DNA of 42,609 nt from contig CP070716.1 of assembly GCA_020350425.1 (NCBI GenBank), positions 195,348 to 237,956 of the forward strand, written 5' to 3'. The notes below the pieces were generated by a model, which saw only the letters and a list, made by a program, of their open reading frames with translations, made no database searches and was not told the origin of the DNA. Below are positions 21,245 to 27,409 of the stretch, one piece after another (positions within the stretch are counted from its first letter, which is position 1; each line of letters begins with the position of its first letter). The position numbers and the translations under genes were made by a program. Origin of the DNA: Gemmatimonadota bacterium (GTDB lineage: Bacteria > Gemmatimonadota > Gemmatimonadetes > Gemmatimonadales > GWC2-71-9).

Positions 21245-22120
21245 TTGACACCGGGCTCCCAATCCGAGACCGGCACCATCAAACGACTGGTGCTGAAGCA
21301 CGCGAAGGATGCGTTCGCGAGCGACATGACCGTGGCGCGCCAGTGGCGCGACCTCGGGTATCGGGAGCGCCCCGACTTTGCCCGGGCCGTCGACGAGTAC
21401 GATCGCTTCGTGGCGCTCCTCGGCGATCTGGGAGTGCAGCCCGAGTTCTTGCCGGCCGATGAGGCGGTCGGTCTCGACTCGATCTATGTGCGCGATGCGT
21501 GCGTGGTGTGTGAGCGCGGTGTCGTGCTCGGCAACATGGGCAAGGAGGCGCGGCGCACCGAGCCGGCGGCGCAGGGAGCGGCGTACGCGGAGATGGGGAT
21601 TCCCGTGTACGGGGCGATCAACGGGGAGGGGCGGCTGGAAGGGGGTGACGTCGTGTGGCTCGACGAGCGCACCCTAGCCGTGGGGTGGGGGTACCGCACG
21701 AACGAAGAGGGCATCGGGCAGCTCGAGAGCTTGCTGGTGGACTGTTACGACGAGCTGATCGTGGTGCCGCTGCCGCATTGGGACGGAGCGGCCGGCGTCT
21801 TCCATCTCATGTCCATGTTGAGCCCGCTCGACCGGGACCTGGCGCTCGTCTACTCGCGCCTGCTCCCGGTGCCCTTTCGTGAGCACCTGCTCGAGCGGGG
21901 GATCAAGTTGGTGGAGGTGCCCGACGAGGAGTACGGCACCATGGCCTGCAACGTGCTGGCCGTGGCGCCCCGTCGCTGCGTGATGCTGAGCGGTAACCCG
22001 CAGACGCGGGCCCTGCTGGAGCGCGCCGGGGTAGAGGTGTACGAGTACGAGGGGTGGGAGATCAGCTGGAAGGGAGCCGGCGGGCCGACCTGCCTCACGC
22101 GTCCCGTCGTGCGCGCGTAG
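21245..22120 (+). CDS. Amidinotransferase/DDAH-fold hydrolase (dimethylarginine dimethylaminohydrolase-like)
   Basis: 291 residues. The TTG at 21245 directly follows the previous stop. It is favoured because IKRLVLKHAKDAF, the first conserved strand of this fold, begins at residue 12 and no ATG or GTG precedes it in frame. The guanidino-modifying fold shows DSIYVRDACVV (conserved Asp), RLEGGDV, the catalytic His in GVFHLMSML, and the catalytic Cys near the C-terminus in GGPTCLTRPV. The Cys-His-acid set looks complete, so it should hydrolyse or transfer from a guanidino compound, such as arginine, methylarginine or another. The precise substrate cannot be told. Its 3' end converges on the DUF523-DUF1722 gene with a gap of 15 bp. 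Confidence 0.85.
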   Translation: MTPGSQSETGTIKRLVLKHAKDAFASDMTVARQWRDLGYRERPDFARAVDEYDRFVALLGDLGVQPEFLPADEAVGLDSIYVRDACVVCERGVVLGNMGKEARRTEPAAQGAAYAEMGIPVYGAINGEGRLEGGDVVWLDERTLAVGWGYRTNEEGIGQLESLLVDCYDELIVVPLPHWDGAAGVFHLMSMLSPLDRDLALVYSRLLPVPFREHLLERGIKLVEVPDEEYGTMACNVLAVAPRRCVMLSGNPQTRALLERAGVEVYEYEGWEISWKGAGGPTCLTRPVVRA

Positions 22121-22135
22121 CGCGGCCCGGGGTCG

Positions 22136-23098
22136 CTAGTTCGCCCGCGCCGAGTCCCTGAGGTCCAGCAGCTCCAGCGGGTAGGGTTCGAGGAAGGACT
22201 GCTCGCGCAGGTATGGCTGGTCGAAGCGCTCGATCCACGATTGCAGCAGGACGAGCGGAGCGCTGAGGCTCATGCGGCCACCGCGGTACTCGTCCAGCGC
22301 GTGCAAGAAGTGCCGCTTCTCCCCCGCAGACAAGCCGTCCGACACGTATCCCAACGCGTGCATCATGACGTTGATGTTGGAGGTATTGCGCGGCGGACGC
22401 TCGAGCGCGTGCGCGAGGTGCTCCTCGTAGGCTGCGGCGACCTCCGCGAACGGGCGCCGGTCCGGGTTCGCCACGATGCGCCCCAGCGCCCGCAGCTCCG
22501 TCTGGTGGTAGGCCATGAGCGTGAGCTTGTTCTCGGCCTGGAACCGCACCAGCTCGGCCATCCGGCCGGAGGCCGTGACCGCCCGGAACGAAGCCCGCGC
22601 GAACAGCTTCGTGAGGAAGTGATGCCGCAGGCGGTAGTTGGTGAGCCGCCCCTCGTCCTCGACCGCGGCGAGCGGGAACCGCTCGAGCACCGCGCCACCG
22701 AACATCCCCGGGCCCTTGCCGAACGGCTGCTTGCCATCCTCCCCGCCGTAGACCTTGGTGTCCTTGATCCCGCACGACGGCGAGCGGCTCTTCAGGATGA
22801 ATCCATCCACGTCGCCGAGCCCGCCGAGGTACCGGTCGTTGAAGTCGAGCATGGCCTGGGTGACGTCACGGTCCGTGTCGGGCTGGTACAGGGTGAGCGC
22901 GGTCCCGCGCTGCACGAGGCGGATCGGCGGCCGGGGAATGCCGAGGCCGATCTCGACCTCCGGACAGATCGGCGCGAGCTCCACGAACGGCATCAGCTTG
23001 AGCACGAACGGCGCTCGAATGAGCTGCCCGTTGTAGCGGCACGCGTCGAGCTCGAGGCACTTGCTCATGACGAGAGTGGGGCGGGGGTGTTTGCGCAT
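22136..23098 (-). CDS. DUF523-DUF1722 fusion protein (YbgA-like)
   Basis: 320 residues. The N-terminal about 150 form DUF523, with its conserved cysteines in MSKCLELDACRYNGQ, APICPEVEIGLGIPR and SRSPSCGIKDTKVY, a likely metal or Fe-S site. The C-terminal about 165 are DUF1722 (LRHHFLTKLFARASF, FQAENKLTLMAYHQTELRALG, NTSNINVMMHALGYVSD). E. coli YbgA is the DUF1722 part alone and is encoded beside the photolyase gene phr. In several bacteria fusion versions lie in light- or stress-induced clusters with an SDR gene. The biochemical function is unknown. Here it follows the SDR/DUF2867 gene on the same strand, about 110 bp away, under the promoter at 24779-24808. No photolyase or MerR gene is in the window. 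Confidence 0.9.
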   Translation of the reverse strand: MRKHPRPTLVMSKCLELDACRYNGQLIRAPFVLKLMPFVELAPICPEVEIGLGIPRPPIRLVQRGTALTLYQPDTDRDVTQAMLDFNDRYLGGLGDVDGFILKSRSPSCGIKDTKVYGGEDGKQPFGKGPGMFGGAVLERFPLAAVEDEGRLTNYRLRHHFLTKLFARASFRAVTASGRMAELVRFQAENKLTLMAYHQTELRALGRIVANPDRRPFAEVAAAYEEHLAHALERPPRNTSNINVMMHALGYVSDGLSAGEKRHFLHALDEYRGGRMSLSAPLVLLQSWIERFDQPYLREQSFLEPYPLELLDLRDSARAN

Positions 23099-23109
23099 CG
23101 CGGGCTCGC

Positions 23110-23205
23110 TCAGATTCGCAGGGTCACGCCGAAGGTGCCGTAGTGCACGAGAGCCAAGTTGACCCCCCGGTCCACGTTCGCGCCACCTTCGAGCGGCCGC
23201 CGCAT
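23110..23205 (-). CDS. Possible 31-residue mini-gene between SDR and DUF523 genes
   Basis: An ATG one base after the SDR stop opens a 31-codon frame, MRRPLEGGANVDRGVNLALV, ending GTFGVTLRI. The end alternates like a beta strand and vaguely resembles the last strand of an outer-membrane barrel. It may be a remnant of a lost gene or a chance frame. No homologue is recognised. Confidence 0.25.
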   Translation of the reverse strand: MRRPLEGGANVDRGVNLALVHYGTFGVTLRI

Positions 23206-23206
23206 C

Positions 23207-24709
23207 TCAGTGGTTCCCGCCCCTCGAGTGCGCGCGTGTCGTGGGAAGCGCCGCTGCCGGCGCCGAGTTCGCCGCCCGGGCGATCCCCCGCAGCATTCCC
23301 TCGAAGACGAGCGTGTGCAGCGGGTACAGCGCATACCAGTACAACAGGCCGAGGAGGCCGACCGGGTCGAAGATCGCCGTCTGGCGAACGCGCGAGCCGG
23401 ATTCGGACGGCTCGACCTCGAACTGCAGCCACGCCCGACCGGGGAGCCTCATCTCGGCCGTGAGCGAGAGCAGTCGGTTCGGCTCGACCCGCTCCACGCG
23501 CCAGAAGTCCACCGTGTCGCCGGGCTCGACCTGCTCGGGGTTGCGCCGCCCGCGGCGCACCCCGACGCCCCCCACCAACAGGTCGAGGAACCCCCGCACC
23601 CGCCACAGCCAGTCCCCGTAGTACCACCCGGTCGCGCCGCCGAGGCGGCGGATCGGCGCGAACGCGTCCGCGGGGGCCACGGCGACGTCGGTGCTGCGGG
23701 AATCCACCAGGCGCGAGCCGAATCGCTTACCGCCCCACTGGCGCCCGGCGCCGGCCGAGGACAGCGCGTCCGACCAGCGGGTCTCCGCGACGACGCGGTC
23801 CTCGTTCTGCAGGGCTCGGGCAATGGCATCGGCGATCCCGCGCGGCCGAATCGCGAAGGCGGAGAGCGCCCGCTCATCGTGGACCACCGTCGGATTTCGC
23901 AGGCTATCCACCAACTTGCGGCCCACGCGCGCGTAGATCGGCGTGACCAGGCCAAGCCACAAGCCGGAGAGCCGCGGCGACAGCACCGGGACGGGAATCA
24001 TCATGCGGCGCAGGCCGCGCTGGCGCGCGTACTCCCGCATGATCTCGCCGTAGGAGACCCGGTCTGCGCCACCGATCTCATACACCGTGCTCTCCGTCCC
24101 CGGAAGCTCACGGGCCGCCAGCAGGTAGGCGATGACGTCCTCGATGGCGATCGGCTGCGCCGGCACGCGCACCCAACGCGGGGTGATCATGACCGGGAGC
24201 TTTTCGGTGAGCGCGCGAATCATCTCGAACGAGAGGCTGCCGGAACCGATGACGATCGAGGCGCGCAGCTCGATCGTGGGCACGCCCGAGGCGCGCAGGA
24301 TCTCTCCCACCTCGTGGCGGCTGCGGAGGTGAGCCGACAGGGCCGATCCGCTCCCGAGGCCGCCGAGATAGACGAGGCGGCGCACGCCTGCCGCCTTGGC
24401 GGCCTCGCCAAAGAGTCGGGCGGCGCGCCGGTCCTCACGCTCGAAGTCGCCCGCCGACCCCATGCTGTGCACCAGGTAGTAGGCGGTGTCGATGCCGCGC
24501 ATGGCGGGCCCCAGACTGCTCGCGTCGAGCACGTCTCCCTGAACCACCTCGGTGTCTGGGCCGGCCCGGCCACGCAGGAACCCGGGATGGCGCGCGAGAC
24601 ACCGGACCGGCGTCCCACGCTCCTCGAGCGCCCGCAGCAAGCGGCCCCCCACGTAGCCCGAGGCGCCGGTCAGCAGGATCCGTTGCGCTCCCTCTGGACT
24701 GCGCGGCAT
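23207..24709 (-). CDS. SDR (NmrA-like) oxidoreductase with C-terminal DUF2867-like domain
   Basis: 500 residues from the ATG at 24709 (AAAGAGG upstream). The N-terminal about 300 form an NAD(P)-binding extended Rossmann domain: RILLTGASGYVGGRLLRAL (glycine motif GASGYVG), VQGDVLDASSL, and HSMG in YYLVHSMGSAGDFE in place of the catalytic YxxxK region. It is thus closer to the atypical NmrA/YbjT-type proteins. The C-terminal about 180 (ATGWYYGDWLWRVRGFLDLLVGGVGVRRGRR, VDFWRVERVEPNRLLSLTAEMRLPGRAWLQF) form a DUF2867/SRPBCC-like lipid-cavity domain. The function is unknown. The same fusion recurs with DUF1722 proteins in photo- or redox-responsive clusters (my recollection). It is transcribed from a promoter with an embedded palindrome. 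Confidence 0.88.
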   Translation of the reverse strand: MPRSPEGAQRILLTGASGYVGGRLLRALEERGTPVRCLARHPGFLRGRAGPDTEVVQGDVLDASSLGPAMRGIDTAYYLVHSMGSAGDFEREDRRAARLFGEAAKAAGVRRLVYLGGLGSGSALSAHLRSRHEVGEILRASGVPTIELRASIVIGSGSLSFEMIRALTEKLPVMITPRWVRVPAQPIAIEDVIAYLLAARELPGTESTVYEIGGADRVSYGEIMREYARQRGLRRMMIPVPVLSPRLSGLWLGLVTPIYARVGRKLVDSLRNPTVVHDERALSAFAIRPRGIADAIARALQNEDRVVAETRWSDALSSAGAGRQWGGKRFGSRLVDSRSTDVAVAPADAFAPIRRLGGATGWYYGDWLWRVRGFLDLLVGGVGVRRGRRNPEQVEPGDTVDFWRVERVEPNRLLSLTAEMRLPGRAWLQFEVEPSESGSRVRQTAIFDPVGLLGLLYWYALYPLHTLVFEGMLRGIARAANSAPAAALPTTRAHSRGGNH

Positions 24710-24778
24710 CGCTGTATCCTCTTTGCTGCAAATGAGTCGTGAATCGTGGCGGCGGCGGCGCCGCAACCATCAGTGGTC

Positions 24779-24808
24779 AATATAATGTCCAGGACATTAC
24801 TGTAACAA
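24779..24808 (-). promoter_or_regulatory. Promoter with 17-bp palindromic operator in the spacer (SDR gene)
   Basis: Read on the minus strand: TTGTTA (24803-24808), an 18-bp spacer, then TATATT (24779-24784). The spacer contains TAATGTCCTGGACATTA (24783-24799), 8-bp arms around one base, overlapping the -10 by two bases. It leaves a leader of about 63 bases. An operator inside a long spacer is the classic arrangement for MerR-family regulators, but other dimeric repressors could bind. Confidence 0.6.
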
Positions 24809-24842
24809 GCTGCTTGGGTGGTGACGCCGGACCAAACGCGAG

Positions 24843-24877
24843 CGGCCCCACCCCTCGCCGCCCGAGAGGTGGGGCCG
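24843..24877 (-). terminator. Hairpin terminator after the secreted propeller gene
   Basis: A 10-bp stem (24843-24852 with 24868-24877), 18 bp after the stop of the gene ending at 24896. On the minus strand it is followed by CTCGCGTTTGG, only a short T run. Confidence 0.6.
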
Positions 24878-24895
24878 CCGCCGAGGGGCCGAGCC

Positions 24896-26041
24896 CTACA
24901 GCCTATACCGCTCGAGCCACTGCAGGTCGTCTTCGTCGCTGCGGATCACGTAGACCACGCCGTCGCCGAAGGCGACGACGCGCCGGTCGCTCGGCAGGCT
25001 CACCCGCTCGACCAGATTGCCCCGCGCGTCGAACACGTCATACGTCCGCATCTCCGCGTCGGAGGGAGCCGAGCGCTCCACCCAGAGCCTTCCATCCGGT
25101 GCGATCCGCGCGGTGCGGTGCACGGTGGGCGGCATGTAGTCGGGCCAGTCCACGTTGTCGATGTTGGGTCGCGGCGGCCGCCCGACGCGGCGTCGGCCGT
25201 TCTCGACGTGTATCGTGACGCCGCGGCTCGTCATTGCGTCGGCCCAGGCCTCTTTATCCTCGGTCGTGATCCTGACCGGCTTGAAGTCCGCCGGGGGTCC
25301 CTCCGTCGCCGCACCGTCGCTCGTGATCCACTGGATGCTGTAGTCCGCGTAGCGCACCAGGGCGACCGTGCCGTCTGGTGTCACCGCCCAATCGTCCTGC
25401 GGCTGGTACGCGCCCCCGCCGATATTGACCACGGCTGCACCGGGCCCGGCAGGCTCCATGGGGGGGAAGTGCACGTAGCCCAAAGTGTCCACCACGTCCG
25501 CCGAGCGGTCCCAGCGCAGCACGGGGGCGATGCCCCGTACCGCGCTCTCCTCGAGGCCCGGCAGCATCATCCCCGCCAGGTCGAAGTAGATGCGCCCGGC
25601 TTGGTCCACTCCCCGTGGAAGAATGGGGTAGCCCGCGGGGTGCCTGAGCGGAATCGTCTCTTCGCTCAGCCGTCCGTCGGGAAGGATGACGTTGAAGCGG
25701 CGGTTCATGATGTCGGACATCAGCGTGGAATCGCCCGGCAACGCGTACAGCGGGCCCGGCATCTGGAACTCACCCGGCCCTCCGCCCTGTCGCCCCAGCT
25801 GCTCGTAGGTCCCGCTCGCGAAGTCGAGCCGCACGAGCGTCATTTCGATGCGGTCGGAGATGAGGACCTGGCCGTTGCTCAGTTCCCGGACACCCAGAAC
25901 GGCGCTGAAGGGTTCGGGGAAGGCCGCGTCGGGCGCACCGAGCTCAACCGATCTGGCTGCGGACTGGGCCGCGACGGTATGGGTTGCGAGACCGAGGGCG
26001 GCCAGTGTGGCGAGCCCTGCCCGCAGGACAGTTTGACGCAT
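24896..26041 (-). CDS. Secreted 6-bladed beta-propeller (NHL-like) protein, copy 1
   Basis: 381 residues, with GGGAG before the ATG. The signal peptide MRQTVLRAGLATLAALGLATHTVAAQ has no lipobox, so the product is released into the periplasm or outside. The body is a beta-propeller with the family signature LGRQGGGPGEFQMP, the same GxxGGGPGEF box found in the propellers at 30617 and 35056. Blade strands include VLGVRELSNGQVLISDR and RIAPDGRLWVERSAP. The family, common in Gemmatimonadota and Bacteroidota, has no known activity; propellers usually serve as binding platforms. It is transcribed away from the RND operon, starting 180 bp from it, and has its own terminator. Confidence 0.85.
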   Translation of the reverse strand: MRQTVLRAGLATLAALGLATHTVAAQSAARSVELGAPDAAFPEPFSAVLGVRELSNGQVLISDRIEMTLVRLDFASGTYEQLGRQGGGPGEFQMPGPLYALPGDSTLMSDIMNRRFNVILPDGRLSEETIPLRHPAGYPILPRGVDQAGRIYFDLAGMMLPGLEESAVRGIAPVLRWDRSADVVDTLGYVHFPPMEPAGPGAAVVNIGGGAYQPQDDWAVTPDGTVALVRYADYSIQWITSDGAATEGPPADFKPVRITTEDKEAWADAMTSRGVTIHVENGRRRVGRPPRPNIDNVDWPDYMPPTVHRTARIAPDGRLWVERSAPSDAEMRTYDVFDARGNLVERVSLPSDRRVVAFGDGVVYVIRSDEDDLQWLERYRL

Positions 26042-26179
26042 ACGCTCTCCCTGTGATTGCTTCCGATTGGCCTGCCGCACTAGATGCCTCGCGGACCGGA
26101 AGAGTCGCACCTTTGCGCGTGCAACCCTGGGGCTGGGCCGGGCGTCTACCAAGCGGGCCGCGTGCTCGCCATTCGGCGC

Positions 26180-26203
26180 TATAATACGGATTAAGGGTAC
26201 CCT
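26180..26203 (+). promoter_or_regulatory. Promoter -10 and palindrome ahead of the RND operon
   Basis: A perfect TATAAT (26180-26185) with no recognisable -35 at the usual distance, followed by the 10-bp palindrome AGGGTACCCT (26194-26203) at about the start site. This suggests an activator-dependent promoter or a repressor site. The adaptor ATG is at 26222. Confidence 0.5.
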
Positions 26204-26221
26204 GGCTGAGGAATCGGTGGA

Positions 26222-27409
26222 ATGACCTTGCGGCGGTTACTCGGATCGGCGATCGCCGTCGTGGTGATCGGCTCACTCGTGGGGGGCGTGTACCTGCGGA
26301 GCCGGGGCGACGATGACGAGGGTGGCGGCACAGCCCTCGCCGAGGTCCCCGAGGGCGGTGCCGAGGCGGTGTCGTCCGCGCGCACGTTCTCGACCGACGT
26401 CGCCATTCCGGTCGAGGGGGCGCTGGTGGTGCGGGACACGCTCGTGGTCTCGGTGTCGGCCGCCGCGGAGGCCGCGGCGTTCCGGCAGGCCGTCCTGCGG
26501 GCGCAAGTGGAGGGACGCATCACGGGCCTGCGCGTGGCGGAGAGCGATGCGGCGCGGCGCGGCCAGCTCCTCATCCAGATCGACACCGCCGAGTATGCGC
26601 TGGCGGTGGAGCGCGCGCGCGCCCGCCTCGCCACCGCGACCGCCACGTACGACGAGCTCACGATGTTCGACGACGAGATCGAGGACGAGCGAATCCGCGT
26701 CGAACGTGCTCGCTTCGCCCGGGCGAAGAGCGGGCTCGCCGACGCCGAGCTGGGGGTGCGCGAGGCCGAGCTCCAGCTGCAACGCACCCGCATCGAGGCG
26801 CCGTTTGCCGGGCGCGCGGCCTCGCTCCGGGTCGTCGAGGGGCAGCAGGTTCGGCCCGGCGACGAGTTGCTGACGGTGGTGGACCTCGATCCGATCAAGG
26901 TCGAGGTGCAGGTCTTGGAGAGCGAGGTGGGACTGCTCGCCGAAGGCCGGGGCGCGACGATCGCGTTCGCGGCGTTCCCGGGCGAGTCATTCTCCGGCCG
27001 CATCGCCACCATCAATCCCGTTGTGGAGCGCGACACCCGCACGGCGCGCGTCACCGTGACCATCCCGAACCCGCAGGGACGAATCCTCCCCGGGATGTAC
27101 GCCCGCGTCTCGCTCGAGGCGCGCAAGTTCCCGGACCGCGTCTTGGTGCCGCGGGGGGCGATCCTCGAGCGGGACCGGCGCACGATGCTGTTCGTGTTCG
27201 AGGGCGAGAACGACGTCGGCTTCGCCAAGTGGCGCTACGTGACGCCCGGGATGATGAACGACTCGCTGGTGGAGATCGTCGCCGATCCCGAGACCGACAT
27301 GGTCGAGCCCGGCGAGTGGGTGCTGACCGACGGGCACTATACCCTGATCCACGACGCACGGGTACGACTGGTGGAGAGCGTGCGGGCCGAGGGCGGGCGG
27401 CCGCAGTAG
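26222..27409 (+). CDS. RND efflux periplasmic adaptor (membrane fusion protein)
   Basis: 395 residues. The N-terminal anchor helix (about 9-26, GSAIAVVVIGSLVGGVYL) has no lipobox, so the protein is inner-membrane tethered. The usual order follows: biotinyl-lipoyl half (LRAQVEGRITGLRVAESDAARRGQLLIQID), a short coiled-coil hairpin (YALAVERARARLATATATYDEL...ARFARAKSGLADAELGVREAELQLQ), the second lipoyl half (RTRIEAPFAGRAASLRVVEGQQVRPGDELLTVVD), beta-barrel (IKVEVQVLESEVGLLAEGRGATIAF) and membrane-proximal domain. The acidic linker (GDDDEGGG) is long. It is the only adaptor for two permeases downstream, so both may share it. It starts the operon; the RND gene begins 10 bp after its stop. Confidence 0.92.
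   Translation: MTLRRLLGSAIAVVVIGSLVGGVYLRSRGDDDEGGGTALAEVPEGGAEAVSSARTFSTDVAIPVEGALVVRDTLVVSVSAAAEAAAFRQAVLRAQVEGRITGLRVAESDAARRGQLLIQIDTAEYALAVERARARLATATATYDELTMFDDEIEDERIRVERARFARAKSGLADAELGVREAELQLQRTRIEAPFAGRAASLRVVEGQQVRPGDELLTVVDLDPIKVEVQVLESEVGLLAEGRGATIAFAAFPGESFSGRIATINPVVERDTRTARVTVTIPNPQGRILPGMYARVSLEARKFPDRVLVPRGAILERDRRTMLFVFEGENDVGFAKWRYVTPGMMNDSLVEIVADPETDMVEPGEWVLTDGHYTLIHDARVRLVESVRAEGGRPQ

Follow-up and report, generated by a model that had tools for sequence, protein, structure and literature searches.

Two genes on the minus strand of the 42.6-kb stretch of DNA that we analysed as a whole (the window) lie downstream of a sigma70-like promoter (Table 1). The first, an SDR gene, starts about 70 bp downstream of this promoter and is followed by the gene for RudS, in which PF04463 (at 10-149) precedes PF08349 (at 191-307); a search for solved structures resembling the RudS protein returned none at E <= 0.01. 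On the upstream side the neighbour is a beta-propeller-like gene ending at 24896, a reading of our own for a sequence with no Pfam match, and on the downstream side a convergent gene of the arginine-deiminase/DDAH type. Scanning positions 22000-26300 against Rfam at gathering thresholds revealed no riboswitch or other family.

The -35-like and -10-like elements of the promoter, 18 bp apart, were recovered as a pair by a promoter scan (mean in shuffles of the region, 0.0). The palindrome TAATGTCCTGGACATTA, which the initial annotation had placed in the spacer between them, is indeed found there, is perfect (8+1+8), and also extends into the -10 by 2 bp. When perfect palindromes with arms of at least 8 and a loop of 0-1 were counted over the whole window, 8 were observed versus 4.25 in dinucleotide shuffles, and arm length by itself is therefore unremarkable in this DNA. 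Palindromes with no more than 7 G+C, of which TAATGTCCTGGACATTA is one, occurred on average 0.025 times per shuffled window.

Table 1. Features of the locus in window positions, followed by regulator genes and a gene cluster elsewhere in the same genome
Feature	Position	Strand	Basis or remark
RudS gene: TudS/DUF523 (2-thiour_desulf) fused to DUF1722	22136..23098	minus	Pfam
SDR gene (NmrA/NAD_binding_10) with C-terminal DUF2867	23207..24709	minus	ATG at 24709, preceded by RBS-like AGAGGA
Predicted LitR/CarH operator (R1 positions 2-36)	24774..24808	minus	R1 and de novo motif
Second 11-bp repeat with TTGACC, degenerate (C for last A), over the -10	24774..24784	minus	pattern
-10-like TATATT	24784-24779	minus	promoter scan
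Palindrome TAATGTCCTGGACATTA	24783-24799	minus	
11-bp repeat with TGGACA, complete match to CarH TnnACA	24785..24795	minus	repeat rule of PMC9304148
-35-like TTGTTA	24808-24803	minus	promoter scan
LitR1	G000:C1:2149278		own genome
LitR2	G000:C1:2828881		own genome
Cluster FAS1-photolyase-SRPBCC-thiI, facing litR2	L106:5376-9520 (G000:C1, about 2824375-2828519)	minus	

Direct repeats within the palindromic promoter

CarH operators are described as tandem 11-bp repeats, nnnnTnnACAn, of which one or two full copies together with degenerate ones can suffice (PMC9304148). In the window, TTGACC begins exactly 11 bp past TGGACA and satisfies three of the four fixed TnnACA positions, and the repeat that contains it overlaps TATATT, as is expected of CarH operators, which overlap the -35 or the -10 of promoters of the sigma70 type. 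The site has only one full 11-bp repeat, the second being imperfect and a third not being seen. Three bases before the T of the repeat, furthermore, the window has T where the CarH consensus nAnnTnnACAn has A. At the position of the second repeat relatives carry TTGACA, TAGACA or TGTACA, and the second unit fits TnnAC or better in 10 of the 11 training sites of model R1 (see below), the exception being the litR site of genome G050, which has ATAACA. Both the window site and the litR-crtI promoter of G050 contain TGTTACAGTAATGTCCT(G/A)GACAT. Exact TnnACA-N5-TnnACA occurs at 13 places in the own genome, versus 5 for the backwards control, and five of these 13 places are located at three LitR/FAS1 intergenic regions; the window site is absent from them because its last base differs.

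The spacer filled by a palindrome had been taken in the initial annotation for the geometry used by MerR-family regulators. In classical MerR activation, a dimer would sit on the true dyad within an over-long spacer, twist the DNA and switch the promoter on. The dyad does lie inside the spacer, and the 11 training sites for the most part retain the left TGT arm too, with T at position 16 in at least 90% of them. Promoters activated in this classical manner, however, have spacers of 19-20 bp, and the 18 bp seen here are in the ordinary range and fit CarH-style 11-bp repeats over the -10 instead. In relatives, conservation is seen in a pair of TnnACA units spaced by 11 bp. Even though (pseudo)palindromes are reported as the normal binding sites of MerR proteins (PMC8156234), CarA of Myxococcus xanthus and the protein paired with it seem to read direct repeats and not the inverted repeats first proposed (PMC9304148). 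We consider activation of this kind unlikely. In the operator of the M. xanthus carotenoid operon, the inverted repeats once ascribed to CarA coincide with 11-bp direct repeats, as at the window site, with the difference that its several repeats are upstream of and over the -35 (PMC9304148) and those of the window site over the spacer and the -10. Read in the same way, the site described here illustrates that direct repeats of a CarH operator can be masked by a palindrome.

Related sites in the own genome and in relatives

Model R1 was built on 11 sites, the window site being left out. Because these training sites had been chosen partly for their likeness to the window, a second motif was made de novo, for which relatives supplied 29 LitR promoters and both the own genome and the carotenoid-heading LitR of G050 were left out. 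This motif reads TGTCtAaGTttTGTCAAG, which corresponds to the 11-bp repeats, and over the 42.6-kb window it gives the top places to the window site on both strands (27.0 and 23.8 bits; third place, 7.7 bits). None of 1000 column-permuted de novo models did as well at the site, and the matrix from the 11 sites of R1 outscored 2000 of 2000 permuted matrices in the window. The only R1 match inside the window is the site itself, which ranks first in the whole genome (E 4.5e-5), followed by the litR1 promoter, a training site (E 3.4e-4), and by a FAS1 promoter (E 0.063). The litR2 promoter was missed by R1 in this genome and was found by the repeat pattern alone.

Among the 102 genomes of the family, R1 yielded 14 matches in 12 genomes at E <= 0.01, four of which were not training sites, namely the window site and three sites directly upstream of LitR genes. 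At E <= 0.02, a search of the order (288 genomes) gave 28 matches in 21 genomes, which include all 11 training sites and 17 others. Besides the window site, there are thus 16 non-training matches, 11 of which stand immediately before LitR; another two (L164, L168) have it at a distance of no more than about 1.5 kb. One match (L169) precedes FAS1, and the remaining two (L157, L170) belong to genome G080, no farther than 34 kb from its LitR. In a family not used for training, 8 of the 12 matches stand directly before LitR genes. Since half-sites like this one serve several families of regulators, and the binding protein is predicted here from sequence, another regulator with a common half-site (another MerR protein, or one of the TetR or GntR type) might read the site; yet a motif derived from LitR promoters alone finds it, and R1 matches elsewhere are mostly at LitR genes, and we therefore regard such a regulator as quite improbable.

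As an exact word, the palindrome behaves differently from the degenerate operator, for which alone enrichment was seen. The 17-mer is present once in the own 2.87-Mb genome, where allowing up to 3 mismatches uncovered no place besides the window site, and in the phylum 22 of 395 genomes have it when up to 2 mismatches are allowed, versus 20 for the backwards control (hand count). Since it is not enriched over this control, we rejected the 17-mer as a genome- or phylum-wide signal, and the word itself does not mark a regulon. The initial annotation had proposed to look for further copies of the palindrome before photolyase, carotenoid or MerR/LitR genes, and had counted their absence as a refutation; the exact sequence has indeed no second copy, though only because the operator is degenerate, and related sites do precede LitR-carotenoid, folE and FAS1 genes. 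That a palindrome arose by chance in an ordinary constitutive promoter is very improbable, since against the single copy of the 17-mer and its near-control frequency in the phylum stand the permutation tests (0/2000 and 0/1000), the first rank of the site genome-wide with R1, and the association of R1 matches with LitR genes in another family.

Five places in other genomes of the family match the 17-mer with two mismatches, two of them directly before telling genes: the site in G050 precedes a gene for a MerR regulator with B12-binding domain, followed by a phytoene-desaturase-like gene, and the one in G199 precedes folE (GTP cyclohydrolase I). Further look-alikes of the window site were seen in the upstream regions of 30 SDR loci, the own one included, with an R1 match at E <= 1 in only 8 of the 30, and none of the 22 RudS loci of other genomes, including the rudS contig of G402, has an R1 match. 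In G220, which belongs to the same genus, a strong R1 site (a training site; L112:3543-3578) precedes an outer-membrane beta-barrel gene. Genome G080 has four R1 sites within 34 kb, the strongest of which (L157) lies at a putative small lipoprotein gene with CNPFRSP near its start; the same putative gene is divergent from LitR in L158 and L160.

LitR/CarH proteins and their gene neighbourhoods

With the G050 protein as query, 44 of the 102 family genomes proved to have LitR-like genes, the own genome having two. A LitR/CarH-type site before the SDR and DUF523-DUF1722 genes had been suggested from the start, together with a check for a MerR/LitR regulator in the genome, and both suggestions gain from this result and from the kinship of the site with LitR promoters. 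LitR1 and LitR2 each combine a MerR HTH with B12-binding_2 and B12-binding domains (Pfam) and match the structure of Thermus thermophilus CarH (E 6.9e-31 and 3.1e-30, respectively). The Wx9EH motif that caps the adenosyl group is kept in both, as WRGGELGIAHEH in LitR1 and WHDGTLTPAHEH in LitR2; as for the cobalt-ligand motif E/DxHxxG, LitR2 fits it with ERHEMG, and LitR1, with QMHELG, keeps the ligand His and has Q for E/D. The LitR of the G050 carotenoid operon (L004:1540-2511) also keeps Wx9EH and has QVQELG in place of the CarH ExHxxG; with the cobalt-ligand His lost, this protein may function independently of B12 or bind it in another way.

The litR1 gene is apparently the first of an operon, which goes on with genes for a CrtI-like desaturase, a phytoene/squalene synthase, a polyprenyl synthase, a carotenoid-biosynthesis protein and a glycosyltransferase. 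The litR1 promoter contains ATTGTCCAGTACATGTCTTGGACATATATTGTACATC, in the same arrangement as the window site. LitR2 faces the FAS1-photolyase-SRPBCC-thiI cluster, and the gap between litR2 and FAS1 contains TGGACA-N5-TTGACA on one strand and TTGACA-N5-TAGACA on the other. As described for the CarH systems of T. thermophilus, Bacillus megaterium and myxobacteria (PMC9304148, PMC8156234), we find a MerR HTH with B12 domains and Wx9EH, TnnACA repeats 11 bp apart that overlap the -35 or the -10, and a carotenoid operon and the regulator's own gene as apparent targets. At the window site, unlike in those systems, a full repeat and a degenerate one merge with an inverted copy to form a perfect palindrome, repeat position 2 is T and not A, and the predicted target is SDR-rudS. 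The class II LitR proteins of Pseudomonas (PplR/PmlR) control a light regulon with photolyase, SDR and folE, genes that recur here, but are reported to use T(G/A)TACA-N12-TGTACA, which is another half-site with an 18-bp phasing versus 11 bp here (PMC9758184).

The link of the SDR to light- and photolyase-related gene sets, which the initial annotation had proposed, is borne out by the relatives, in which this gene adjoins LitR or photolyase. LitR is present in 29 of the 31 SDR genomes and in 15 of the 71 others (Fisher 2.8e-12; 102 family genomes), although relatives are not independent and the p-values given here are therefore optimistic. The SDR gene lies no more than 40 bp from a LitR gene in 9 of the 31 SDR genomes (positions compared by hand). 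In G220 a photolyase-litR pair faces FAS1-SDR-rudS, and in both G050 and G199 the SDR gene faces photolyase.

Another observation concerns FAS1 (Fasciclin) genes, which in two families are repeatedly the neighbours of LitR genes or of R1 sites (L106, L112, L125, L128, L161-L164, L169 and L119:7141-7641). In the own genome there is a second FAS1 gene, whose R1 site is weak and which also has TnnACA repeats in opposed pairs; behind this gene lies what we read as an RmuC-like gene, as in G050. A brief literature search found no published link between FAS1 and LitR.

Probable light control of SDR-rudS and tRNA 4-thiouridine

The site, its likeness to LitR promoters, the two LitR genes, the operon and the neighbourhoods in relatives are all supported by sequence. 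Taken together, they make it probable that a B12 photoreceptor repressor of the LitR/CarH type has its operator here, with the palindrome as the core, and SDR-rudS would be repressed in the dark and released in the light; the 11-bp repeats overlap the -10, which indicates dark repression. In the dark, LitR1 and/or LitR2 loaded with adenosylcobalamin would bind the TGGACA and TTGACC repeats over the spacer and the -10, and the bound protein would block transcription of SDR-rudS. Light would break the cobalt-carbon bond, LitR would leave, and the SDR and RudS would be made. RudS might then remove 4-thiouridine (s4U), which is sensitive to near-UV, from tRNA, and so provide photoprotection alongside carotenoids and photolyase. 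Binding, the sign of regulation, the response to light and the enzyme activity of this particular RudS are steps that we infer.

RudS proteins are reported to strip s4U from tRNA and, when made in E. coli, to lessen the growth delay caused by UVA; their genes are often part of light-responsive operons, one LitR operon of Pseudomonas encoding PhrB, LitR and RudS, and ThiI is present in most genomes that encode them (PMC11417400). To call the downstream pair one of unknown function is hence outdated for one of the two genes, DUF523-DUF1722, the family function of RudS as a tRNA s4U desulfidase being published (PMC11417400). The RudS of the window is like the published ones (PMC11417400) in the TudS-DUF1722 fusion, in the presence of ThiI in the genome and in its light-linked setting, and unlike them in that its gene stands behind an NmrA-like SDR with DUF2867, in a part of the genome apart from litR and phr, with a predicted LitR operator of its own. 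The operator evidence supports the proposal of light-induced s4U removal that the authors of that work based on gene neighbourhoods (PMC11417400). It would extend a known scheme of bacterial light response to a little-studied phylum, and it provides a concrete candidate light regulon for a family of Gemmatimonadota, for which our search, which reached few subscription papers, found no published light regulon.

The own genome encodes, alongside RudS, the s4U writer ThiI, whose gene lies about 53 bp behind SRPBCC in the cluster facing litR2. In the family, the RudS domain (DUF1722) occurs in 4 of 102 genomes, all of them among the 8 of 102 that have ThiI (p 1.6e-5). A location of thiI beside litR or phr was not seen as a rule of the family; among the 8 ThiI genomes, the own one alone has thiI next to one of the LitR-like genes found with the G050 protein (positions compared by hand). 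It is a tentative idea, drawn from one genome and a putative operon for thiI, that both writer and eraser of s4U are here under the control of light, rudS through the predicted LitR operator of the window and thiI, as last gene of the litR2-facing cluster, through the 11-bp repeats in the gap between cluster and litR2. If this were true, light would start a cycle of s4U erasure and rebuilding, coupling the near-UV sensing of tRNA to the B12 photoreceptor. In G402, rudS (match of 59%) lies next to thiI, the two genes diverging from a gap of about 50 bp; a LitR site between them was considered and discarded, as L132 has no R1 match. Genome G020, where a DUF1722 search found nothing, has on the minus strand (L137:6100-6414) a RudS-like fragment of 54 residues with 56% identity, about 1 kb from thiI, which is probably a decaying rudS.
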